Assembly (NCBI GenBank): GCA_003170315.1
Contig: PNAH01000010.1
Location: 34,437-98,436, forward strand
Direction: 5' to 3'
Length of the DNA: 64,000 nt
Origin: Acidimicrobiaceae bacterium
GTDB taxonomy: Bacteria > Actinomycetota > Acidimicrobiia > Acidimicrobiales > RAAP-2
Program-made: the position numbers and the translations under genes
In this document: one piece after another, positions 42,458 through 50,548 of the stretch
Layout: every line of letters begins with the position of its first letter
Numbering within the stretch: the stretch's first letter is position 1
The notes under the pieces: model-generated
The model's database searches: none
What the model was told of the DNA's origin: nothing
What the model saw: only the letters and a program-made list of their open reading frames with translations

Positions 42458-42672
42458 CGGTCGGTCGCCCGCTCGTTCTCTCCACAGGTGTTTAACTTCG
42501 GACGAACTCCAAGGCGGCAGTGAGCGGCCCTGTGGTCGACGGCGGCGTTCAGCGTGGATAGACCTCCGGAGACAGTCGACTCCCCCTATTGGAATCCACT
42601 TCGACGCGACTACGACCACGCAATGGGAGAATGTCAGAATGCGTTCCGACGAACTCAAAGATCACGGACCGA

Positions 42673-43599
42673 ATGACTGAAGTAGGCGGTGACTCCGATC
42701 ACTCACAGGCAGTCTCTTCGACGAGTGACATGCGCTTCGTTCTCGTCGCGCTCGTATTGATCAGCGCTTTTCTCGTCGGTGAGGTCGTCGCCGCAGTGCT
42801 GGGCCATTCTCTTGTTCTGTTCGCCGACGCCGGGCATATGTCGACCGATGTCGCGGCACTCGCTCTCAGTGCGTGGGCCATTCGCCTCGCGAGACGTCCG
42901 GCCGAGGGACGTTGGACCTTCGGTCTTCAACGCGCGGAGATCCTCTCGGCGGCGGCCAACGGCGTTGCGCTCGTGGCGATTTCTCTGCTCATCGCCATCG
43001 ACGCCATCGAGCGACTCATCAGCCCGCATCGAGTGCACGGAGGCCTCGTTCTGATCGTCGCGGGAGTGGGTGCACTCATCAACGTCCTCGCCACGTGGGT
43101 GCTGTCCAAAGCCAACCGACGAAGCCTCAATTTACGCGGTGCCTACGTGCACATCTTGACTGACCTTTATGCCTTCATTGGGACGGCGATCGCCGGGCTC
43201 GTCATTGTGCTCACCGGGTGGAATCGCGCGGACTCGATCGCGTCGCTCGTCGTCGTGGTGCTGATGGTTTATGCCGCGTGGGGATTACTGCGGGACGCTG
43301 GTCGAATCTTGCTCCAAGCGGCTCCGGAGAGTTTGGTCCTCGCCGACATCCGATCGCATCTGTGTGGCGTAACTCACGTCCTCGATGTTCATGATCTCCA
43401 CGTGTGGACCTTGACCTCAGGGTCTCATACCGTATCGGCGCACGTCATTGTGGAAGATCACTGTTTCGACACTGGTCACGCCCCGCGGATACTCGACGCT
43501 CTCCAGAGTTGTCTCGTTGAGCATTTTGACGTGGAGCACGCCACCTTTCAGCTGGAGCCGGCATCACACGTGAATCATGAAGGTAACTTGCACCCCTGA
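42673..43599 (+). CDS. Cation diffusion facilitator (CDF) metal exporter
   Basis: 308 residues from ATG 42673; an in-frame ATG at 42631 gives 14 more. Six membrane segments carry the CDF metal site: HSLVLFADAGHMSTD in segment II and HILTDLYAFIG in segment V, each with the H-x3-D spacing of zinc-type CDFs. The C-terminal cytoplasmic domain (VHDLHVWTLTSGSHTVSAHV) is the metal-sensing ferredoxin-like fold. It exports zinc, cadmium or cobalt in exchange for protons. No ribosome site is strong. Confidence 0.9.
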   Translation: MTEVGGDSDHSQAVSSTSDMRFVLVALVLISAFLVGEVVAAVLGHSLVLFADAGHMSTDVAALALSAWAIRLARRPAEGRWTFGLQRAEILSAAANGVALVAISLLIAIDAIERLISPHRVHGGLVLIVAGVGALINVLATWVLSKANRRSLNLRGAYVHILTDLYAFIGTAIAGLVIVLTGWNRADSIASLVVVVLMVYAAWGLLRDAGRILLQAAPESLVLADIRSHLCGVTHVLDVHDLHVWTLTSGSHTVSAHVIVEDHCFDTGHAPRILDALQSCLVEHFDVEHATFQLEPASHVNHEGNLHP

Positions 43600-43797
43600 A
43601 CCCAGTGCGTGCGGGTACCCGAAGAAGCCTCGATGATGTGGCCCGTTTGAATGGTGAGCCAGCTGATCGCTTCCCACCTTGGGACGATACTGATACGGAG
43701 ATCCTGTATCTCGACAATTTTGACCCAAGCGAGAGATCTATTGAGGCAAATGCACCGTATACCTGTCGCGATGACCAGCCACGGTGACCTTTTATCA

Positions 43798-44715
43798 ATG
43801 CGCCAACGTGCGTTTCGGAATATGTCAGCGTCGGCCCCCCTTCGGGCGCGGTCCAACGGAACGTGGAATCTCCTGCGTATCGGCGGCAGCGTGTCGCTAA
43901 TCGCGACCGGCGCAATTCATCTCGATCTGTACCTCACCGGGTACCGGACGATTCCCACGATTGGATGGTTATTCCTGTTGCAAGTGATCGCCGATTTTGT
44001 GATCAGCACCGCGGTGATCGTGTCGGACTGCCGATTGGTGTCGGCCGCTGGAGCCGGGCTGGTGATGTTCACGCTGTTGGGGTATCTCCTGGCATTGCGA
44101 ATCAGCCTCTTTGGCTTTCGCGAGGTGCGCACCACCGCGGGCATCATCGCTGGCGCGATCGAGATCGCCGGATTCGCTCTGCTTGCGGCCTTCGCGTTGC
44201 GTCCGCACGGTGCAAGCAAGATTCCAAAGTCATCGGTGCAGGAACGCCACTCGAGCGTGGTTCGAAACGTAGCGCTCCGAGCGAGCCGGTGGGTGGCCGG
44301 GATTCTAACGGCGCAGGCCGCCATCTCCTTGGGCCTGCTCTTGCCCAATCCGGGCGCGGCGTCAACGAACACCGGCGGTTCGGCGGTCCTGATTAAGGTC
44401 GCTGAAGTTCACGGGGTTTCGATTCTCACCAACGCTCACGGCTACACCTTGTACTGGTTCGCGCCGGATTCGTCCACCGCGTCGCGCTGTTACGGAACCT
44501 GCGCGGCGTACTGGCCTCCGCTGCTCGGCGTGTCCTCGGCCACGGGCGTCGCCGGATCCTTCGCCACGTTGCATCGATCAGGTGGAGCGATGCAGGTCAC
44601 CTACAACGGACATCCGCTCTACACCTACGTCGGGGACTCCGAACCGCGACAAGCGAGCGGCAACCGTATCAACTTGAACGGAGGCTGGTGGTACGAGATG
44701 AAGGCGTCGAGCTAG
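43798..44715 (+). CDS. Multi-pass membrane domain fused to a COG4315 secreted-repeat domain
   Basis: About 305 residues. The first half holds four to five membrane segments (LLRIGGSVSLIATGAIHLDL, then IGWLFLLQVIADFVISTAVI and others). The last 125 residues are a COG4315-type domain: HGYTLYWFAPDSSTASRC, CYGTCAAYWPPLL and HPLYTYVGDSEP, the aromatic-rich Yx(FWY)xxD repeats of the family. The domain should face outside. The start is uncertain (ATG 43750, 43771, 43798 or 43822). It meets the ICMT-like gene convergently. Confidence 0.8.
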   Translation: MRQRAFRNMSASAPLRARSNGTWNLLRIGGSVSLIATGAIHLDLYLTGYRTIPTIGWLFLLQVIADFVISTAVIVSDCRLVSAAGAGLVMFTLLGYLLALRISLFGFREVRTTAGIIAGAIEIAGFALLAAFALRPHGASKIPKSSVQERHSSVVRNVALRASRWVAGILTAQAAISLGLLLPNPGAASTNTGGSAVLIKVAEVHGVSILTNAHGYTLYWFAPDSSTASRCYGTCAAYWPPLLGVSSATGVAGSFATLHRSGGAMQVTYNGHPLYTYVGDSEPRQASGNRINLNGGWWYEMKASS

Positions 44716-44742
44716 TACGATTCGACGTCGCTCCCATCGCCG

Positions 44743-45480
44743 TCACCACACGCCCGGGAGCAACCTCCAACGAACCTTTGACCGATACTCGTTGTAGCCG
44801 CCACTGGAAACGAGCAGTCGCTCTTCGACGAGGGCTCGTCCCACGTTGCAGCTGCAAATGAATGTCACGACGATTGCGTTTTGGACCGAAAGGCTTTGCA
44901 GCAGATAGCCGATTTGAAGAAAGAAGTAAGAGGCGTAAATCGGGTGGCGAACGACCGAGTACGGTCCGCGTTGTTTCAAGCCGCGGTCGGCGGCGGCGAA
45001 GCCGAAGGAGCGACCGAGGGCCACGAACGACGCCACACAGAGAACGAGGCCAATCAGCTGGACGTCGAATCCGGCGACGACGCCCCAGTGCGGATGAGCA
45101 CCGTTGGGCCGTAGTAACACGCCGCCGAAGGTGCCGCCAAAGGCGAGGAGCCAGTCGAGCGGTCGCTGACTCACCACGCGAGCCGGACGCCGCACCAAGT
45201 AGGCGCCGACGACCCACATCTCTTCGGCGAGGAATATGGCGCCGATCAGGGAGTGCGTGCGAGCGTAGTACTCGAAGCCAGCCCGAGCGAAGAGCGCCGC
45301 ACCGAATGCGGCGACGATATTCGCCGTGAGGCGTACGGTCATGACAGTTCGCGATGAACGATGCGGCGTCTCGCGCGCTACGCCCTTCGAATGGAGTTTC
45401 TCGAGCTCGTTGAGCGCGGACCCGTGGCCATCGGAACGCGACCGCGCGCGTTCTCGTTCACGGTACGTGTTCGGCGTCAT
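44743..45480 (-). CDS. Isoprenylcysteine carboxyl methyltransferase-like membrane protein
   Basis: 245 residues from ATG 45480, which overlaps the DoxX stop codon (TGATG). The N-terminal 45 residues are charged. The rest has several membrane segments and the ICMT/PEMT signature KQRGPYSVVRHPIYASYFFL with a following EERLL, the SAM-binding region of membrane methyltransferases. An internal ATG at 45342 would remove the charged lead. Bacterial members methylate lipids or small hydrophobic acceptors; the acceptor is unknown. Confidence 0.82.
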   Translation of the reverse strand: MTPNTYRERERARSRSDGHGSALNELEKLHSKGVARETPHRSSRTVMTVRLTANIVAAFGAALFARAGFEYYARTHSLIGAIFLAEEMWVVGAYLVRRPARVVSQRPLDWLLAFGGTFGGVLLRPNGAHPHWGVVAGFDVQLIGLVLCVASFVALGRSFGFAAADRGLKQRGPYSVVRHPIYASYFFLQIGYLLQSLSVQNAIVVTFICSCNVGRALVEERLLVSSGGYNEYRSKVRWRLLPGVW

Positions 45481-46001
45481 CAACCGGTCGACAACATCGA
45501 ACGACTGAATCGGCGCTCGATGAGCGCGTCAACACTCACTCGGCCGGGCCCGAGAAACACGATTACCAGGGCCATGACGGCGAGCGCCATGTTGAACTCG
45601 TATCCCGGCGTCAATGACTCCGAGTTGATTCCGTTCACCCAGGTGACGGTGATCATCGCCATCACCTGATCTCCGAATAGGGCCAGTCCGGCCAAACGCG
45701 AGCCCAGGCCGAAAACGAGAGCGATGGCACCGCCGAATTCAATTATCCCACCGAGAACGGCGAAGAATCCGCCGGGGTGCAGGTGCGCGGTGTTCGAGAA
45801 AAAGAGGGACGTTTGGTGGATCCCCGGACCGTTGAACGCTCCGAACAGTTTCCCGGCGCCGTAGTAGATGAAAATCCACGCGAGAGCGACGCGCACGGCA
45901 ATGAGAGCGGCGTCGCTGGCACTCGTTGTGGGACGGGTCGAGAAGACCATCGAGAATAGGGCGCGAGCGCGTCGATTCGGCTCGTGCAACGCCGCCGACA
46001 T
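45480..46001 (-). CDS. DoxX-family membrane protein
   Basis: 173 residues with four membrane segments. RVALAWIFIYYGAGKLFGAF, GGIIEFGGAIALVFGLGSRL and the later GYEFNMALAVMALVIVFLGP follow the DoxX pattern. The start overlaps the stop of the desaturase gene by one base (TAATG). DoxX proteins occur in thiosulfate oxidation and in actinobacterial redox-stress membrane complexes. Here the coupling to a membrane hydroxylase and a methyltransferase suggests an electron or quinone role, which is inference. Confidence 0.9.
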   Translation of the reverse strand: MSAALHEPNRRARALFSMVFSTRPTTSASDAALIAVRVALAWIFIYYGAGKLFGAFNGPGIHQTSLFFSNTAHLHPGGFFAVLGGIIEFGGAIALVFGLGSRLAGLALFGDQVMAMITVTWVNGINSESLTPGYEFNMALAVMALVIVFLGPGRVSVDALIERRFSRSMLSTG

Positions 46002-47128
46002 TAATGAGTTCCGCCGCGAGCGGTCTCGTGAAGCGAGTCACGCACTCCGACTTCCACGGGAGCGATGGTTGAAGTGTCGTTGAAACTTACGAACGCCGAG
46101 CGATCACCGACGATTTCCTCGCGAACCTCGAGCGGTCGAAAGGGACCGAGGAGTTGCGCGACGAAGACCGAGAGGTGGCGCGCGCGTGGCGCGCTTTGCT
46201 CGACGGCGAGCGGCCGGCCCGGGAGACCGGTGTCGATGCGGATCGTCTCTTTCGTGGGGAATACCGCGCGGCCGGAGAGCTGGTCCCAGACGGTAAGAGC
46301 GAAACCGAGGTTGACGTCCTGGCGTCCCTCGACCCGGTGGTGGATTCGGTGATAGTTCGGACTGCAAAAGATCCGATTCAAGGGACCGAAGCTGAGATTC
46401 GTATTCGAGTGCTCGAAGGCGACGACGGCGGCGTAGGCGACCAACAACGTGGTGGTCACCGCACCATTGGCGACGAGCACGATTCCCGGGATCAACGCGA
46501 TGAGGTAGGACACGTGAATCAAGGGATGGGTGCGAAAGACGGTGAGCACGCTCATGTCTTCTTGCGAGTGGTGCAACTCATGGAATCGCCACAGCATTCG
46601 GACCCGGTGATTGGCCATGTGCGCGGTCCAGTTGCACGCGTCCATGGCTACGAAGATGAGCGCAATGACTAGCCAACGAGGCAAAAACTCGAAACGAGGT
46701 ACGACGATCCAGGGCAGTGAGTGCCGGGCGACCTCGGCGAAGGAAAGCGAGAGCGCCACGACGAGGGGAACCACGAGGGTCACGTTCAACACCGTGTACA
46801 AGACGTCCTGTCGATGCCCACGGGCGAAGAACGCCCGGCGTTGCGCCGGCCGCAGTCGCTCCACCACCATGAACAGCAAGAGGATCACTATCGTCACCGG
46901 TCCCACGACGACCACGCGTTGATTCGTCATCGACGCGGCGAATCCAGAACCTCCCCAGCGACTTGACAGACCTATGGCCACCAGAACGATCGCCACCGCG
47001 ACAATCGAGAGAGCGGGCAGGTAGATGCGCGACGAGATCGCGCGCCGGCGACTCTCCGCGAGGACGCGGGACTCGGATGGGCTCGCGGTATCGGGCGGAC
47101 GGTTCGACGAGATGATGACGGACGACAT
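46001..47128 (-). CDS. Sterol desaturase/fatty acid hydroxylase-superfamily membrane protein
   Basis: 375 residues from ATG 47128, which follows GAGGAGG. About five membrane segments surround the di-iron histidine boxes: HMANHRVRMLWRFHELHHS holds HX4H-like and HELHH clusters, and NYHRIHHR gives the third. These proteins use O2 and electrons to hydroxylate or desaturate lipids in the membrane. It is tightly coupled to DoxX. The lipid substrate is unknown. Confidence 0.88.
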   Translation of the reverse strand: MSSVIISSNRPPDTASPSESRVLAESRRRAISSRIYLPALSIVAVAIVLVAIGLSSRWGGSGFAASMTNQRVVVVGPVTIVILLLFMVVERLRPAQRRAFFARGHRQDVLYTVLNVTLVVPLVVALSLSFAEVARHSLPWIVVPRFEFLPRWLVIALIFVAMDACNWTAHMANHRVRMLWRFHELHHSQEDMSVLTVFRTHPLIHVSYLIALIPGIVLVANGAVTTTLLVAYAAVVAFEHSNTNLSFGPLNRIFCSPNYHRIHHRVEGRQDVNLGFALTVWDQLSGRAVFPTKETIRIDTGLPGRPLAVEQSAPRARHLSVFVAQLLGPFRPLEVREEIVGDRSAFVSFNDTSTIAPVEVGVRDSLHETARGGTH

Positions 47129-47156
47129 ACTGGCCTCCTCGTTCACAACCTAGGTA

Positions 47157-47693
47157 TCAGAACCCGACTCCGCCACCACCACCAGCGACGGTCGTCGTGG
47201 TTGTCGGCTTACCCTTGGGCTTCACGGTCACGACGTCGGACCACTTGCCCCAGGTGTCGGTGACGTTACCCTTTACCTGTCCCGGAGCTTTGTCCAGGTA
47301 GAAGTAGTAAAGAGATTTGCCGCCGTAAGTCACCTGCAGTTTCCCGCCGGTTCCCTTCACGGTTCCGAGCTTGGCGGCGCTCACGCCCGAGCCGGCGGTT
47401 GCTTTGGTGACGCCCTTGGGCAAGACGACCGCGGCCCAGAACTTCAGGCACGCCGTGGTGCACTTGATGGAGTTGGGCGTCAAGGTGTAGACGGTCTTGC
47501 CGCTCACCAGGATGGTGCCGAACTTGGCGGTCTTGAGAGTCGAAATGACGACACTCTGTGCGTGGCTGTGCACCGCACCCGACGCGCTCGACGCGCCGAC
47601 CGTGAGGCCGAGGCCCCCGACGACGAGGAACGCGCCCGCGACGCGTCCCCTCAAGTTCGCGCGCGATACAAGGTCAATTGATGTTCGGGCCAT
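47157..47693 (-). CDS. Secreted COG4315-type repeat protein
   Basis: 178 residues from ATG 47693, which has AGGAG upstream. A signal peptide (about 1-37, with GAFLVVGGLGLTVGASSASG) precedes the COG4315 region: KTVYTLTPN, CTTACLKFWAAVVLP with two cysteines, and KSLYYFYLDKAPGQ. The tail is threonine- and glycine-rich. COG4315 proteins are small extracytoplasmic proteins of unknown function, often near ECF sigma factors. It sits between the anti-sigma gene and the desaturase-DoxX-ICMT genes. Confidence 0.85.
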   Translation of the reverse strand: MARTSIDLVSRANLRGRVAGAFLVVGGLGLTVGASSASGAVHSHAQSVVISTLKTAKFGTILVSGKTVYTLTPNSIKCTTACLKFWAAVVLPKGVTKATAGSGVSAAKLGTVKGTGGKLQVTYGGKSLYYFYLDKAPGQVKGNVTDTWGKWSDVVTVKPKGKPTTTTTVAGGGGGVGF

Positions 47694-47851
47694 GTCGTGT
47701 GTCTCCTGAAGGTTGGTTTCGAATGAAAAGGCTGATGTGGGATTCGTGGAACCGAGTGTGAGATTCCGCACCCGGCGCCTTCACTGCTTCATTGCTATTC
47801 GGTACTACGGACGGTTGGTACGTAGGGATCATTTCGATCTCGTAGGGACGG

Positions 47852-48529
47852 TCACGTCGCAAAGGTGGCCCGCGCGAGCACGGTACCGTGCGTGTTCACG
47901 AGACGGGCGGAACGAACCAGACTGCCCGGTGATTTAATCGGAGCGATCCACGAGCCGTAGCCGTGTGAGAGGGTGAACTTCCCGACGGTCTCTACTCGCC
48001 CATCGGCCAGTGTGACTTCACACCACACGAGGCCCGACAACTTTCCCGCGTCCACGTCCATGATCATCCACGAGGGACTCCCGGACGAAATGGTCACGTG
48101 GCCGACCACTACGCCGTCCGCCGTTAGTTGACTCGACGTCGGTCGCACCGTCGTCGAAGGGTTGGTCGCGCCGCCATGAGTCGTGAGCACGGCGTCAACA
48201 CCAATTCCGAGCACCGCGACGAGTACCGCGGCCACGGCCAAGACGCTGGCTCGGCGTCGTCGAACGGTCAGACGACGAGTGTCGCTCGCTCGGTACCTTT
48301 CAATGAGACGCGTCTCGAAGCCCAAGGAGGGTTCGGCCTCGGGGGCGAGCCACAGCATCGTGTCGACGACTCCGGCCAAGGATTCCAACTCCGCGTCGCA
48401 GTGCGCGCAGGACTCGAGGTGGTCGAGGACCTGTGACCGGCTTCGACCGGAAAGTGTGCCGAGGGCGAATTCGATCAGGTCGTCGCTGATGGCTTCACAC
48501 TTCATTGATTCCTCCGGTTGACGACTCAT
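47852..48529 (-). CDS. Anti-sigma factor with zinc-type N-terminus (RskA-like)
   Basis: 225 residues; ATG 48529 overlaps the sigma gene (ATGA), while ATG 48505 has a better ribosome site (GGAGGAATCA). The HxxxCxxC zinc motif is HLESCAHC (His37, Cys41, Cys44). A single membrane segment lies near 92-115, and the outside part (SWMIMDVDAGKLSGLVWCEV) resembles the RskA C-terminal domain. It should hold the sigma factor at the membrane until an external signal arrives. Confidence 0.92.
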   Translation of the reverse strand: MSRQPEESMKCEAISDDLIEFALGTLSGRSRSQVLDHLESCAHCDAELESLAGVVDTMLWLAPEAEPSLGFETRLIERYRASDTRRLTVRRRRASVLAVAAVLVAVLGIGVDAVLTTHGGATNPSTTVRPTSSQLTADGVVVGHVTISSGSPSWMIMDVDAGKLSGLVWCEVTLADGRVETVGKFTLSHGYGSWIAPIKSPGSLVRSARLVNTHGTVLARATFAT

Positions 48530-49104
48530 GGGGCCTCCATGATCGCGGCGGCCTCGCGAAGCTTGGCCAAGCCCAATCGAATCCGACTCTTGGCGGTACC
48601 CAAGGGAATCGCCTCCAGTGAGGCGACCTCGGAAGCCGTCCTTCCGTACATCACGGCGAGCACGATCGCTCGCCGTTGATCGTTGGGCAGTGCGGCGAGC
48701 GCGAAGCGCGCTTGCGTCACCGATTCCGACATCGACGCGGCGTCGTCGGGGGAACGATCATTGCTGATCAGTGAGAGAAACGTGCGATCCTCGGGAGCGG
48801 TCGGTATGGGTCGTCGAACTCGCACCGCATCAATGGCGAGATTGCGCGTGATCGTAAGCGTCCACGTAGCGACCGAACCGCGACGCGCGTCGTAGACGGC
48901 CGCGTGGCGCAGTATGCGGATGAAGGCCTCCTGGGCCACGTCTTCGGCCATACCGGGATCACCGACGATCCCGAGGGCCAATCCGAACAACCGTCGTTGA
49001 TAGCGCCGGACGAAAGCGAGGACCGCCCGATCGTCACCGACCGCCACACCCGAAAGCAGGGCTTCGTCGGAAGCCTCGTCGTTGTAACTTCCGTGCGTTC
49101 TCAT
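48526..49104 (-). CDS. ECF RNA polymerase sigma factor (SigK-like)
   Basis: 192 residues. Region 2 (LFGLALGIVGDPGMAEDVAQ, then EAFIRILRHA) and region 4 (LPNDQRRAIVLAVMYGRTAS, then IPLGTAKSRIRLGLAKLREA) are complete. The pairing with a zinc-type, RskA-like anti-sigma factor places it near the SigK group. A TACTAT hexamer ends 6 bases before the ATG, so basal expression probably uses the housekeeping sigma. The genes downstream to 44743 are candidate targets. Confidence 0.93.
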   Translation of the reverse strand: MRTHGSYNDEASDEALLSGVAVGDDRAVLAFVRRYQRRLFGLALGIVGDPGMAEDVAQEAFIRILRHAAVYDARRGSVATWTLTITRNLAIDAVRVRRPIPTAPEDRTFLSLISNDRSPDDAASMSESVTQARFALAALPNDQRRAIVLAVMYGRTASEVASLEAIPLGTAKSRIRLGLAKLREAAAIMEAP

Positions 49105-49408
49105 CTCCAGATAGTACGGCTGAGGTGCTGATTGAGATCAATCGCACACTGATTCTTGTCCGAAACCACTTCGTTTCGGTGCTCTCGGCACAGTTGGCGC
49201 CACTCCCGTGATACAAACAGGTCATCTTCTCGGATCGCCGCGACGTCGGCGGCACTGGCTATCGGTGGGCGAGAAACGAGTTGGGACGCACTCCGTCTTC
49301 AACAGTCCGGCTCCCGATTCCAATGAATCGAGCAAGGGGCCAACAATGGTTAACGTTTTCTCTAGTGGTTCGTAACGCCGGACCAAGTGAAATCGGGGAC
49401 CCAATTCG
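49105..49408. other. 304-base divergent intergenic region
   Basis: It holds the sigma-factor promoter at its left end and presumably the promoter of the secreted hydrolase at its right end. I see no gene, tRNA or strong hairpin in it. Confidence 0.5.
49111..49116 (-). promoter_or_regulatory. -10 hexamer TACTAT, promoter of the ECF sigma gene
   Basis: The hexamer (minus strand) is followed by CTGGAG and the ATG at 49104. TTGATC lies 19 bases upstream as a loose -35. Confidence 0.5.
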
Positions 49409-50548
49409 ATGGATATGAGCTGGTGCATCCGATCAACCGCCCGTCGACTTCGCAAGAGCACGGCCCAACGGGGCGCGATTACCATTCTGACGACTCTCGT
49501 GGTGGGGTTCGTTCTGGCCGCTCCCTTCGGCGCCGACACCAGTCGGGCCACCGCGGCTCCCCTCTTCGGGGTTGGGATCACACGCTGCACGTTCGTTGAT
49601 CACTCGCGCTCCGTGCTCAACTATGCGACGACGCCTTATCGCGTCTCATCATCGAGTCGCGTCCTGGTGACCGAAATTCGATATCCTACCCAGTTTCTCG
49701 CCGGAGGACCGACCGAAAGTGTCGGCGCCACGCCCGTGCCTCATAGCGGCGGTTACCCGATGGTCGTCTTCGCCCACGGTTATGACGTGACGCCCGATAC
49801 GTACGCGGCCCTCTTGGACGCGTGGGTGCGAGCCGGATTCATTGTCGTTGCGCCAATCTTCCCGGACGAGAGCGCCTACGCCGTCGCCGCGCAGCACGGC
49901 GCGAACACGGAGAACGATCTCGTCAACGAACCCGGCGATCTCGCATTCGTCACCAGCGCCGTTCTTCGGGCGTCGGCGACTGCAACGTCGAACTGCCCCG
50001 TCGCCTTCGGTCTGGTTGACCACTCGGAGATCGCGCTGGCCGGGCACTCCGACGGTGCCGAAGCGGTAGGTATGCTGGCCTACGATCACGGCCTCGACCC
50101 CCAAGGCGCTAACTACGCCAGCCTGCGAACGGGAATCGACTATCGGGCGGTGATCATCCTGTCCGGCGCCGAGGACACGTACCAGTCGTACGCCGCCGAG
50201 GCCAGTCGACCGGACCTTCTGGTCGTGCAAAGCCGCGCGGACCAGTGCAATCCCATGAGCCACGGCCTGCTGCTGTACGACGCAATTCACCAACCGAACA
50301 AGTGGTTCCTCGAACTGCTCACGGCCCACCACCTCCCTCCATTCGACGATACGGACGCGGCGGCTTATGGCGTGGTGAGCGCCACGACAGTGCGCTTTCT
50401 CCAAATCTCACTCGGAGGGGCCGCACCCGCGAGCAACCTTACGACCCTGGGCAATCAGCGTCCCACGATCGCTCGGATGTACGTCGGCGCCAACGGACCT
50501 TTAATGAAGAACGTGGCGCCCGTGAAGGAGAGTTGCGGCCCTAACTAG
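49409..50548 (+). CDS. Secreted alpha/beta hydrolase (chlorophyllase/PAF-acetylhydrolase-like)
   Basis: 379 residues. A signal peptide (about 21-50: AITILTTLVVGFVLAAPFGA) is followed by an alpha/beta hydrolase fold with VVFAHGYDVTPDTYAALLDA as the oxyanion strand and LAGHSDGAEAVGM as the nucleophile elbow. The acid and histidine are less clear (HHLPPFDDTDAA may carry the histidine). It acts outside the membrane on esters or lipids. The first ATG is used; a second lies two codons on. Confidence 0.85.
   Translation: MDMSWCIRSTARRLRKSTAQRGAITILTTLVVGFVLAAPFGADTSRATAAPLFGVGITRCTFVDHSRSVLNYATTPYRVSSSSRVLVTEIRYPTQFLAGGPTESVGATPVPHSGGYPMVVFAHGYDVTPDTYAALLDAWVRAGFIVVAPIFPDESAYAVAAQHGANTENDLVNEPGDLAFVTSAVLRASATATSNCPVAFGLVDHSEIALAGHSDGAEAVGMLAYDHGLDPQGANYASLRTGIDYRAVIILSGAEDTYQSYAAEASRPDLLVVQSRADQCNPMSHGLLLYDAIHQPNKWFLELLTAHHLPPFDDTDAAAYGVVSATTVRFLQISLGGAAPASNLTTLGNQRPTIARMYVGANGPLMKNVAPVKESCGPN

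Follow-up and report, generated by a model that had tools for sequence, protein, structure and literature searches.

The locus described here is a block of genes in a 64,000-nucleotide (nt) stretch of DNA (the window) from an Acidimicrobiaceae bacterium (assembly GCA_003170315.1, contig PNAH01000010.1), and several described systems resemble parts of it. The block encodes an extracytoplasmic function (ECF) sigma factor and its anti-sigma factor, one secreted and one membrane protein of the COG4315 family (PF03640, annotated by Pfam as "secreted repeat of unknown function"), a membrane hydroxylase of the fatty acid hydroxylase superfamily (FAH), a DoxX protein and a PEMT/ICMT-like methyltransferase. 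In the SigU-RsuA system of Streptomyces coelicolor, an ECF sigma/anti-sigma pair likewise governs a secreted COG4315-type protein, as SCO0930 is listed in the SigU regulon, which is consistent with COG4315 proteins being an ECF output; the passage that lists it mentions neither an FAH-DoxX-ICMT operon nor a C-terminal tail (PMC6295645). The two window COG4315 proteins score 46 and 59 bits against the NCBIfam SCO0930 model, which has a cut-off of 275. The SigK-RskA regulon of Mycobacterium, which comprises the secreted proteins MPT70 and MPT83 and neighboring lipid-type genes, follows a similar logic of secreted plus membrane/lipid genes. SigK is also the best NCBIfam match of the window sigma factor, but at 116 bits (cut-off 226, not reached), and the secreted proteins of the SigK regulon belong to another family. 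The window FAH shares PF04116 and its His motifs with the ornithine-lipid hydroxylase OlsE and other FAH lipid hydroxylases, but matches OlsE only partially (70 bits, below the cut-off of 475), and we know of no DoxX or tagged secreted partner for hydroxylases of that type. The Hvf/bufferin peptide-maturation operons, which encode DoxX, peptides and MNIO enzymes, are stress-regulated and place DoxX next to a small secreted protein; however, the window DoxX scores 48 bits against the NCBIfam HvfX peptide-maturation family (cut-off 80), and peptides/MNIO enzymes were not among the identified window genes. Lastly, the LPXTG/sortase and PEP-CTERM/exosortase systems resemble the present one in that a short motif, preceded by a low-complexity linker, sits at the C-terminus and goes with a membrane enzyme dedicated to it. 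ECF regulons, FAH, DoxX and COG4315 are thus each already known. Our search of open-licence papers found no description of this gene combination or of the C-terminal tail reported below.

Comparison with related loci indicated that it is a tail at the C-terminus of the secreted proteins, and not the COG4315 domain, that tracks FAH/DoxX. Of 94 relatives retrieved from a collection of 84,980 species, the 80 best were analyzed as a close group (57 loci, FAH identity of at least 54%) and a distant group (23 loci, 37–44%). The window itself is part of a 296-kb contig in a genome of 2.35 Mb. At all 56 loci (window included) with a secreted COG4315 gene directly 5' of FAH, the COG4315 protein has a low-complexity linker and a terminal aromatic residue, counting one protein per locus, the best-scoring directly upstream of FAH. 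The last residue is Phe in 46 and Tyr in 10 of these; Gly, Ala or Ser occupies position -2 in 55, Val or Ile position -3 in 43, and Gly positions -4 and -5 in 53 and 54, respectively. The predominant form is GG[VI][GAS][FY]-COOH. By way of background, 35 of 531 non-overlapping open reading frames (ORFs) of at least 300 residues end in F, Y or W. The tail was not found in the six membrane COG4315 proteins inspected.

No COG4315 gene lies in the stretch covered at five complete close loci (L095, L098, L099, L113 and L120); all five have a mini-lipoprotein carrying the tail near FAH/DoxX, and the COG4315 domain was rejected as the constant partner for this reason. Each of these mini-lipoproteins has a lipobox, 31–43 residues from the Cys onward and an end of SGGAGF, GGGSGF or GGGAAF, i.e., a signal, linker and tail of the same kind as in the COG4315 proteins. 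In L098 a separate copy of the sigma promoter precedes the mini-lipoprotein gene (see below). In the distant locus L138, a mini-lipoprotein ending in GGGVSY is immediately 5' of FAH and a COG4315 gene is 2.3 kb downstream; both protein types occur in L093 and L096, and L079, L087 and L089 have longer low-complexity tailed lipoproteins beside COG4315. Searches with six mini-lipoproteins found no Pfam family at E 0.1 and no NCBIfam family above cut-off; the NCBIfam "lipo-invert" model for C-terminal anchoring was matched by two of the six, weakly and below threshold.

Counts were restricted to loci extending 700 nt or more to either side of FAH. All 46 complete close loci (DoxX present in 41, absent from 5) have a tail protein within 4.5 kb. 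In the distant group, such a protein was found in 6 of 6 loci with DoxX versus 0 of 13 without. The two close loci that have no tail protein are both cut by contig ends. The same criterion was applied to two controls. It retrieved 1 of 70 loci of a class sample of COG4315 genes (G391, ending in GGSGY), and 0 of 12 regions around distant FAH homologues. As with sorting tags, tag and enzyme co-occur across genomes, with the exception of G391 under a looser regular expression (regex). The tail differs from those tags in that the motif, preceded by the low-complexity linker, is the very end of the protein and is not followed by a membrane helix or basic patch, in that the enzyme is of oxygenase type, and in that each of seven genomes has one or two pattern matches. 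Since the tail is kept where the COG4315 domain is absent, we think of it as a docking element or a substrate. Where the remainder of the secreted protein has been lost the tail is still there, and this suggests that the cell envelope contains a tag-and-enzyme system not yet described. We tentatively favor docking, in an envelope-response regulon in which the sigma factor would induce oxygenation of a membrane component, probably lipid, while tail proteins dock on FAH-DoxX; we would place this reading slightly short of an even chance.

The class sample just mentioned consists of 69 loci in 68 genomes (a 70th locus, L211, has the membrane form only and is excluded from the 69). Its loci are the highest entries of a PF03640 list ordered by score, so that the sample is non-random, and have flanks of 1.5–4 kb. 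In a class-level scan of 395 Acidimicrobiia genomes including the window's own, a close FAH orthologue was found in seven others. Five of the eight founding loci recur among the best 80, so that the two locus sets are not independent. In seven FAH genomes, the DNA pattern for GG[VI][GAS][FY] plus stop had 10 matches and its reversed control 9. Nine of the 10 matches are COG4315 ends and one, in G256, is a mini-lipoprotein end; each genome has one or two matches, and a COG4315 protein or mini-lipoprotein is tagged in 7 of 7. G256 encodes a lipoprotein of ~50 residues (L264; G256:C56:14052-14069) whose mature part is a Gly/Asn/Thr linker followed by GGIAY, and which is not on the contig of the FAH cluster. 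For the window's own genome, the tail was rejected as a genome-wide sorting signal as the pattern matches only its two secreted COG4315 proteins. In 22 relatives without an FAH orthologue (two with a distant FAH), a wider tail pattern had 29 matches and its reverse 63; the eight matches with a true stop are short frames, and none of them is a COG4315 protein or lipoprotein. Ten COG4315 proteins from nine of these genomes comprise six with other aromatic ends (e.g., SGY, YGY, GGGW) and four with none.

These other aromatic ends bear on a more ordinary explanation, that the lipid-modifying operon and COG4315 are both outputs of envelope stress and that the tail is inherited, without a direct link to FAH. 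Aromatic ends are common among other COG4315 proteins, and that part of the tail thus predates FAH is to be concluded from those not associated with FAH. Moreover, control of a COG4315-type protein by an ECF sigma factor has a precedent in SCO0930, which is among the genes listed for the SigU regulon (PMC6295645). However, the mini-lipoproteins share only signal, linker and tail with COG4315 and yet adjoin FAH where COG4315 is absent, and the form of the tail varies with the presence of FAH/DoxX; we consider simple co-regulation unlikely. Aromatic ends in the class sample (L147-L216) include SGY, YGY, GDY and SGW, even where there is no FAH.

The gene set is a real, recurrent and linked cluster in uncultured soil and peat actinobacteria. 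Counting loci with sufficient flank around FAH, a secreted COG4315 gene is immediately 5' of FAH in 41 of 50 close loci, DoxX is present in 47 of 53, ICMT in 25 of 49, and a sigma gene lies within 6 kb of FAH in 18 of 33. The corresponding values for the distant group are 7 of 21 (COG4315), 7 of 21 (DoxX), 0 of 20 (ICMT) and 3 of 11 (sigma), with a free four-helix protein in 4 of 21. In the seven class orthologue loci, COG4315 and DoxX adjoin FAH in all seven (the COG4315 gene of G141 is cut by a contig end and the DoxX of G256 is short), while the region examined contains sigma and anti-sigma in five and ICMT in one. For control we used 12 of the next 13 best FAH homologues after the orthologues (26–34% identity); in the 191 kb around these 12, DoxX, COG4315, anti-sigma, ICMT and the membrane partner were all not found, and there were only three weak sigma matches (45–48 bits). 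The order COG4315-FAH-DoxX is mostly stable, with COG4315 divergent in L093 and L096. The position of sigma/anti-sigma varies in L071, L079, L104 and L107, being upstream, downstream or divergent from FAH.

The preliminary description of the window had singled out a coupled hydroxylase-DoxX-methyltransferase trio, and its proposal would have failed had relatives shown these genes scattered. The best 80 of the 94 relatives do repeat much of the arrangement, and the genes are not scattered. The trio did not hold up as the core unit, ICMT being missing in 24 of 49 close and 20 of 20 distant loci with sufficient flank, even though DoxX is frequent in the close group; the ICMT-like methyltransferase is an optional member. 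The linkage between sigma factor and COG4315 proved broader than this block: of the 69 class-sample loci, 28 have an ECF sigma gene no more than 600 nt from COG4315, with no FAH or DoxX in the flanks of 1.5–4 kb examined. The promoter, the C-terminal tail, the mini-lipoproteins and the four-helix partner (free beside FAH or fused to COG4315) were absent from that description.

The distribution of ICMT also bears on the second role that the tail might have, i.e., that it is the substrate. FAH-DoxX, with the ICMT-like enzyme where present, would then modify the C-terminal aromatic residue or carboxylate, as a membrane counterpart of the peptide-maturation systems. Persistence of the tail without the COG4315 domain is what is expected of a substrate motif, and the sub-threshold HvfX match of DoxX (48 bits versus 80) points the same way. 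In the close group, moreover, ICMT occurs in 19 of 26 loci in which the tail has Gly at -2, compared with 3 of 13 in which a different residue occupies that position (Fisher p 0.005, uncorrected for phylogeny and thus ignoring shared ancestry). Yet ICMT is missing in about half of the close loci although the tail protein is present, and the tail is exported, whereas the relatives of ICMT and FAH mostly have lipid substrates or act at the cytosolic face. We judge modification of the tail to be improbable. A reading that spans both roles is that of a C-terminal tag system of a new type, in which a sigma-induced COG4315 or mini-lipoprotein tag would be recognized and modified, or used for anchoring, by FAH-DoxX with an optional ICMT-like enzyme, and the COG4315 domain would be only one of the cargoes; this is possible, though we lean against it. 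We put docking with lipid modification first and modification of the tail second.

Upstream sequences suggest how the block is controlled. In the first loci, TGATCN-N16-CGTA is common to the regions upstream of the sigma and secreted COG4315 genes, with the exceptions that L039 (G206) has no exact match and that the region upstream of the G141 COG4315 gene is beyond the contig end. The window has three sites of this kind, one of them in the form AGATCT (Table 1). That preceding the membrane COG4315 gene falls inside the longest reading of that ORF, and because of this the start was set at 43771; L066, L067 and L068 have AGATCC-N16-CGTA before the same gene. The short gap between CGTA and ATG at the sigma gene indicates that its mRNA is probably leaderless. 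NGATCN-N16-CGTA was looked for near the 5' ends of ORFs across the 80 loci plus the window. It is there in 24 of 31 sigma ORFs, in 32 of 66 that encode secreted COG4315 proteins and in 5 of 11 with the four-helix part (of these 11, four encode the free protein and seven the membrane COG4315 protein), as against 3 of 31 anti-sigma, 1 of 81 FAH, 1 of 58 DoxX and 0 of 27 ICMT ORFs. The chance expectation, calculated from the overall density, is 0.017 per search window. The window's own genome has 11 matches to WGATCY-N16-CGTA, versus 2 to the reversed pattern: the three promoters of the block, seven within longer ORFs, and one outside ORFs of >100 residues. The latter (G000:C23:84460-84485; L059, L256) is ~60 nt before the gene of a secreted NHL-repeat protein of 383 residues, a possible further regulon member judging from this site.

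A third COG4315 gene of the same genome, on another contig, is preceded by TGATCG-N16-CGTA, so that 3 of 3 COG4315 genes there have a site; in G256 a site precedes both the COG4315 gene of the cluster and a second COG4315 gene. A wider search of seven FAH genomes gave 33 sites in six of them and none in G206, as compared to 1 for the reversed pattern. When 30 of the 33 were examined, 21 were inside an ORF of >200 residues, and 4 of these 21 are before COG4315 genes. Comparative sequence alone thus points to an autoregulated promoter common to sigma and its targets, and the block has the appearance of a single small sigma regulon centered on COG4315 genes. Control by the sigma factor is supported insofar as the operon and the membrane COG4315 gene appear to share their promoter with sigma; a sigma gene is not always near FAH.

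That sigma, a membrane anti-sigma and tailed secreted proteins are encoded together raises another possible role for the tail. Escherichia coli DegS is activated by the C-termini of outer membrane proteins (YxF), and a free ...GF/GY-COOH end could by analogy be the ligand of a PDZ-type protease that triggers cleavage of the anti-sigma factor. Aromatic C-termini occur in 10 of 28 class COG4315 proteins beside other ECF sigma factors. These proteins divide by strand, an aromatic end being found in just 2 of 15 on the strand of the sigma gene versus 8 of 13 on the opposite strand, and the former value is low for such a ligand. Across 81 loci, a crude scan for motifs retrieved a single protease-like ORF, with proteases elsewhere in the genomes not searched, and a protease encoded at the locus was rejected as the partner. 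The protease reading fits the distribution less well because the GG[VI][GAS][FY] form goes with FAH/DoxX and not with sigma, and we regard it as very doubtful.

The membrane COG4315 protein may belong to the same complex as the hydroxylase. Its predicted structure (mean predicted local distance difference test score, pLDDT, of 79.9) has a helical membrane part followed by the COG4315 domain, with modeled helices at residues 28-58, 62-84, 88-111, 122-142 and 158-190. The four-helix part occurs alone directly 3' of FAH in L121, L122, L126 and L139, all four of which lack DoxX, and fused to COG4315 directly 3' of FAH in L091 and G256. The four-helix protein may thus do the job of DoxX, with COG4315 working at the same membrane complex. 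Among the class orthologues, the membrane COG4315 gene is intact in G256 and interrupted by an in-frame stop in G354. In L066 (10536-11480; = L035), an in-frame stop separates the four-helix and COG4315 parts, and the promoter is kept.

Taking as its sequence-supported base the gene set, its linkage, the shared promoter, the conservation of the tail and its co-occurrence with FAH/DoxX, the docking reading can be set out as follows. The ECF sigma factor, once freed from its membrane anti-sigma factor, would bind and read TGATCY-N16-CGTA promoters. Its output would be (a) sigma itself and the anti-sigma factor, (b) tail-tagged secreted COG4315 proteins or mini-lipoproteins together with the di-metal oxygenase FAH, DoxX and often the methyltransferase, and (c) the membrane COG4315 protein. 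Electrons would pass through DoxX, or the alternative four-helix protein, to FAH, which would hydroxylate a membrane substrate, most simply a lipid, the most ordinary guess for its product. The methyltransferase, where encoded, would O-methylate the hydroxylated product. The electron transfer, the lipid substrate and the methyltransferase step are suggested by what is known of these families. Finally, the GG[VI][GAS][FY]-COOH tail would hold the secreted proteins at the FAH-DoxX complex.

A number of observations weigh against this reading. COG4315 proteins without FAH often have an aromatic end (29 of 69 in the class sample, 6 of 10 in relatives without the orthologue), and the GGSGY end in G391, which has no FAH orthologue, is accepted by the looser tail regex. 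A sigma gene lies within 6 kb of FAH at no more than 18 of 33 close loci that are complete and at 3 of 11 distant loci, and in G256 it is on a different contig from the cluster. The promoter pattern is absent at 34 of 66 secreted COG4315 ORFs, and five complete close loci, four encoding a tagged COG4315 protein and one a mini-lipoprotein, have no DoxX downstream. The tail motif and regex were defined post hoc from the same data, and the loci are related by ancestry, mostly from similar peat or soil metagenome-assembled genomes (MAGs), so that counts do not represent independent events. For COG4315, this locus points to a probable regulator and a promoter, to partners in the membrane and to a C-terminal motif that can be tested. 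If FAH-DoxX does recognize the tail, it would represent a new coupling of exported proteins to a membrane oxygenase, and DoxX would here gain a defined partner.

Table 1. Features of the block, in window coordinates; start codons at 47693, 47128 and 43771 were read by eye.
Feature	Position	Strand	Length (residues)	Remarks
Promoter TGATCT-N16-CGTA, sigma/anti-sigma operon	49115..49140	-		10 nt from CGTA to ATG
ECF sigma factor	48526..49104	-	192	Sigma70_r2 and r4_2 above cut-off
zf-HC2 anti-sigma factor	47852..48529	-	225	Gene overlaps sigma; one apparent membrane helix by eye
Promoter TGATCC-N16-CGTA, secreted COG4315-FAH-DoxX-ICMT operon	47806..47831	-		
Secreted COG4315 protein	47157..47693	-	178	PF03640 above cut-off; ORF open from 47771, probable ATG 47693
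C-terminal tail GGGGGVGF-COOH of secreted COG4315 protein	47160..47183	-		
FAH-superfamily membrane hydroxylase	46001..47128	-	375	PF04116; ORF open from 47146, probable ATG 47128
DoxX membrane protein	45480..46001	-	173	PF07681; start overlaps FAH stop (TAATG)
PEMT/ICMT-like membrane methyltransferase	44743..45480	-	245	Start overlaps DoxX stop (TGATG)
Promoter AGATCT-N16-CGTA, membrane COG4315 gene	43734..43759	+		Within longest ORF reading (from 43651)
Membrane COG4315 protein	43771..44715	+	314	PF03640 above cut-off; ORF longest from 43651; without tail

Profile matches confirmed all seven genes named in the preliminary description, and the two start/stop overlaps that it gave for FAH, DoxX and the methyltransferase are present, one base each. 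The order of transcription is sigma/anti-sigma, then secreted COG4315-FAH-DoxX-methyltransferase, with membrane COG4315 on the opposite strand. The sigma factor scores 69.9 bits with PF04542 and 36.6 bits with PF08281, and no region 3 match was listed. The anti-sigma factor scores 28.3 bits with zf-HC2 (cut-off 22.2) and 55 bits with the general NCBIfam anti-sigma model, which requires 100. The secreted COG4315 protein consists of a signal peptide (by eye), the COG4315 domain with CxxxC, a T/G-rich linker and the tail. The two COG4315 proteins score 30.4 and 67.5 bits with PF03640 (cut-off 24.4), and the genome has four PF03640 domain matches in three genes (one gene below cut-off), two of which are here, in line with the earlier view that their proximity is unlikely to be chance. 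FAH scores 84 bits with PF04116 (cut-off 31) and has invariant histidines in 8 of 8 aligned orthologues at H176-x3-H180, H189-x2-HH, H246 and H266-x2-HH (numbered from 47146). Such His clusters mark membrane di-metal oxygenases and hydroxylases. The score of DoxX with PF07681 is 54.7 bits (cut-off 23.6). The methyltransferase scores 29.8 bits with PEMT (cut-off 25), narrowly misses ICMT PF04140 (23.6 bits, cut-off 24) and falls short of the NCBIfam isoprenylcysteine methyltransferase model (29.4 of 160 bits).

The model of the secreted COG4315 protein has a 10-residue mean pLDDT of 92–98 across residues 51-160. Foldseek comparison of the COG4315 and membrane COG4315 models with solved structures gave no match at E≤0.001. 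Sequence searches for solved COG4315 relatives retrieved only Fab heavy chains (E 0.03–0.06) and one dehydrogenase (0.25), none of them credible, and a table row in PMC8078820 gives no usable PF03640 structure. The sequence match of FAH to a solved chain, 8qag "sc-CC-6-95" (E 0.0016, 42 residues), was taken as chance and set aside.

The nearest named relative, L067, is an Acidimicrobiaceae MAG with an FAH 95% identical to that of the window; its isolate name, palsa_509, points to a probable peatland habitat. The record of L078 is labelled Candidatus Saccharibacteria, yet contains the acidimicrobial cluster; it is probably mislabelled or contaminated. Two genes flank the block in the window. 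At 49409-50548, divergent from sigma, is the gene of a secreted chlorophyllase/PAF-hydrolase-like protein, which is kept in L066 and L067 and in no other loci. At 42589-43599 is that of a CDF zinc transporter, also near the cluster in L066, L067, L098 and L104 and not in other loci.

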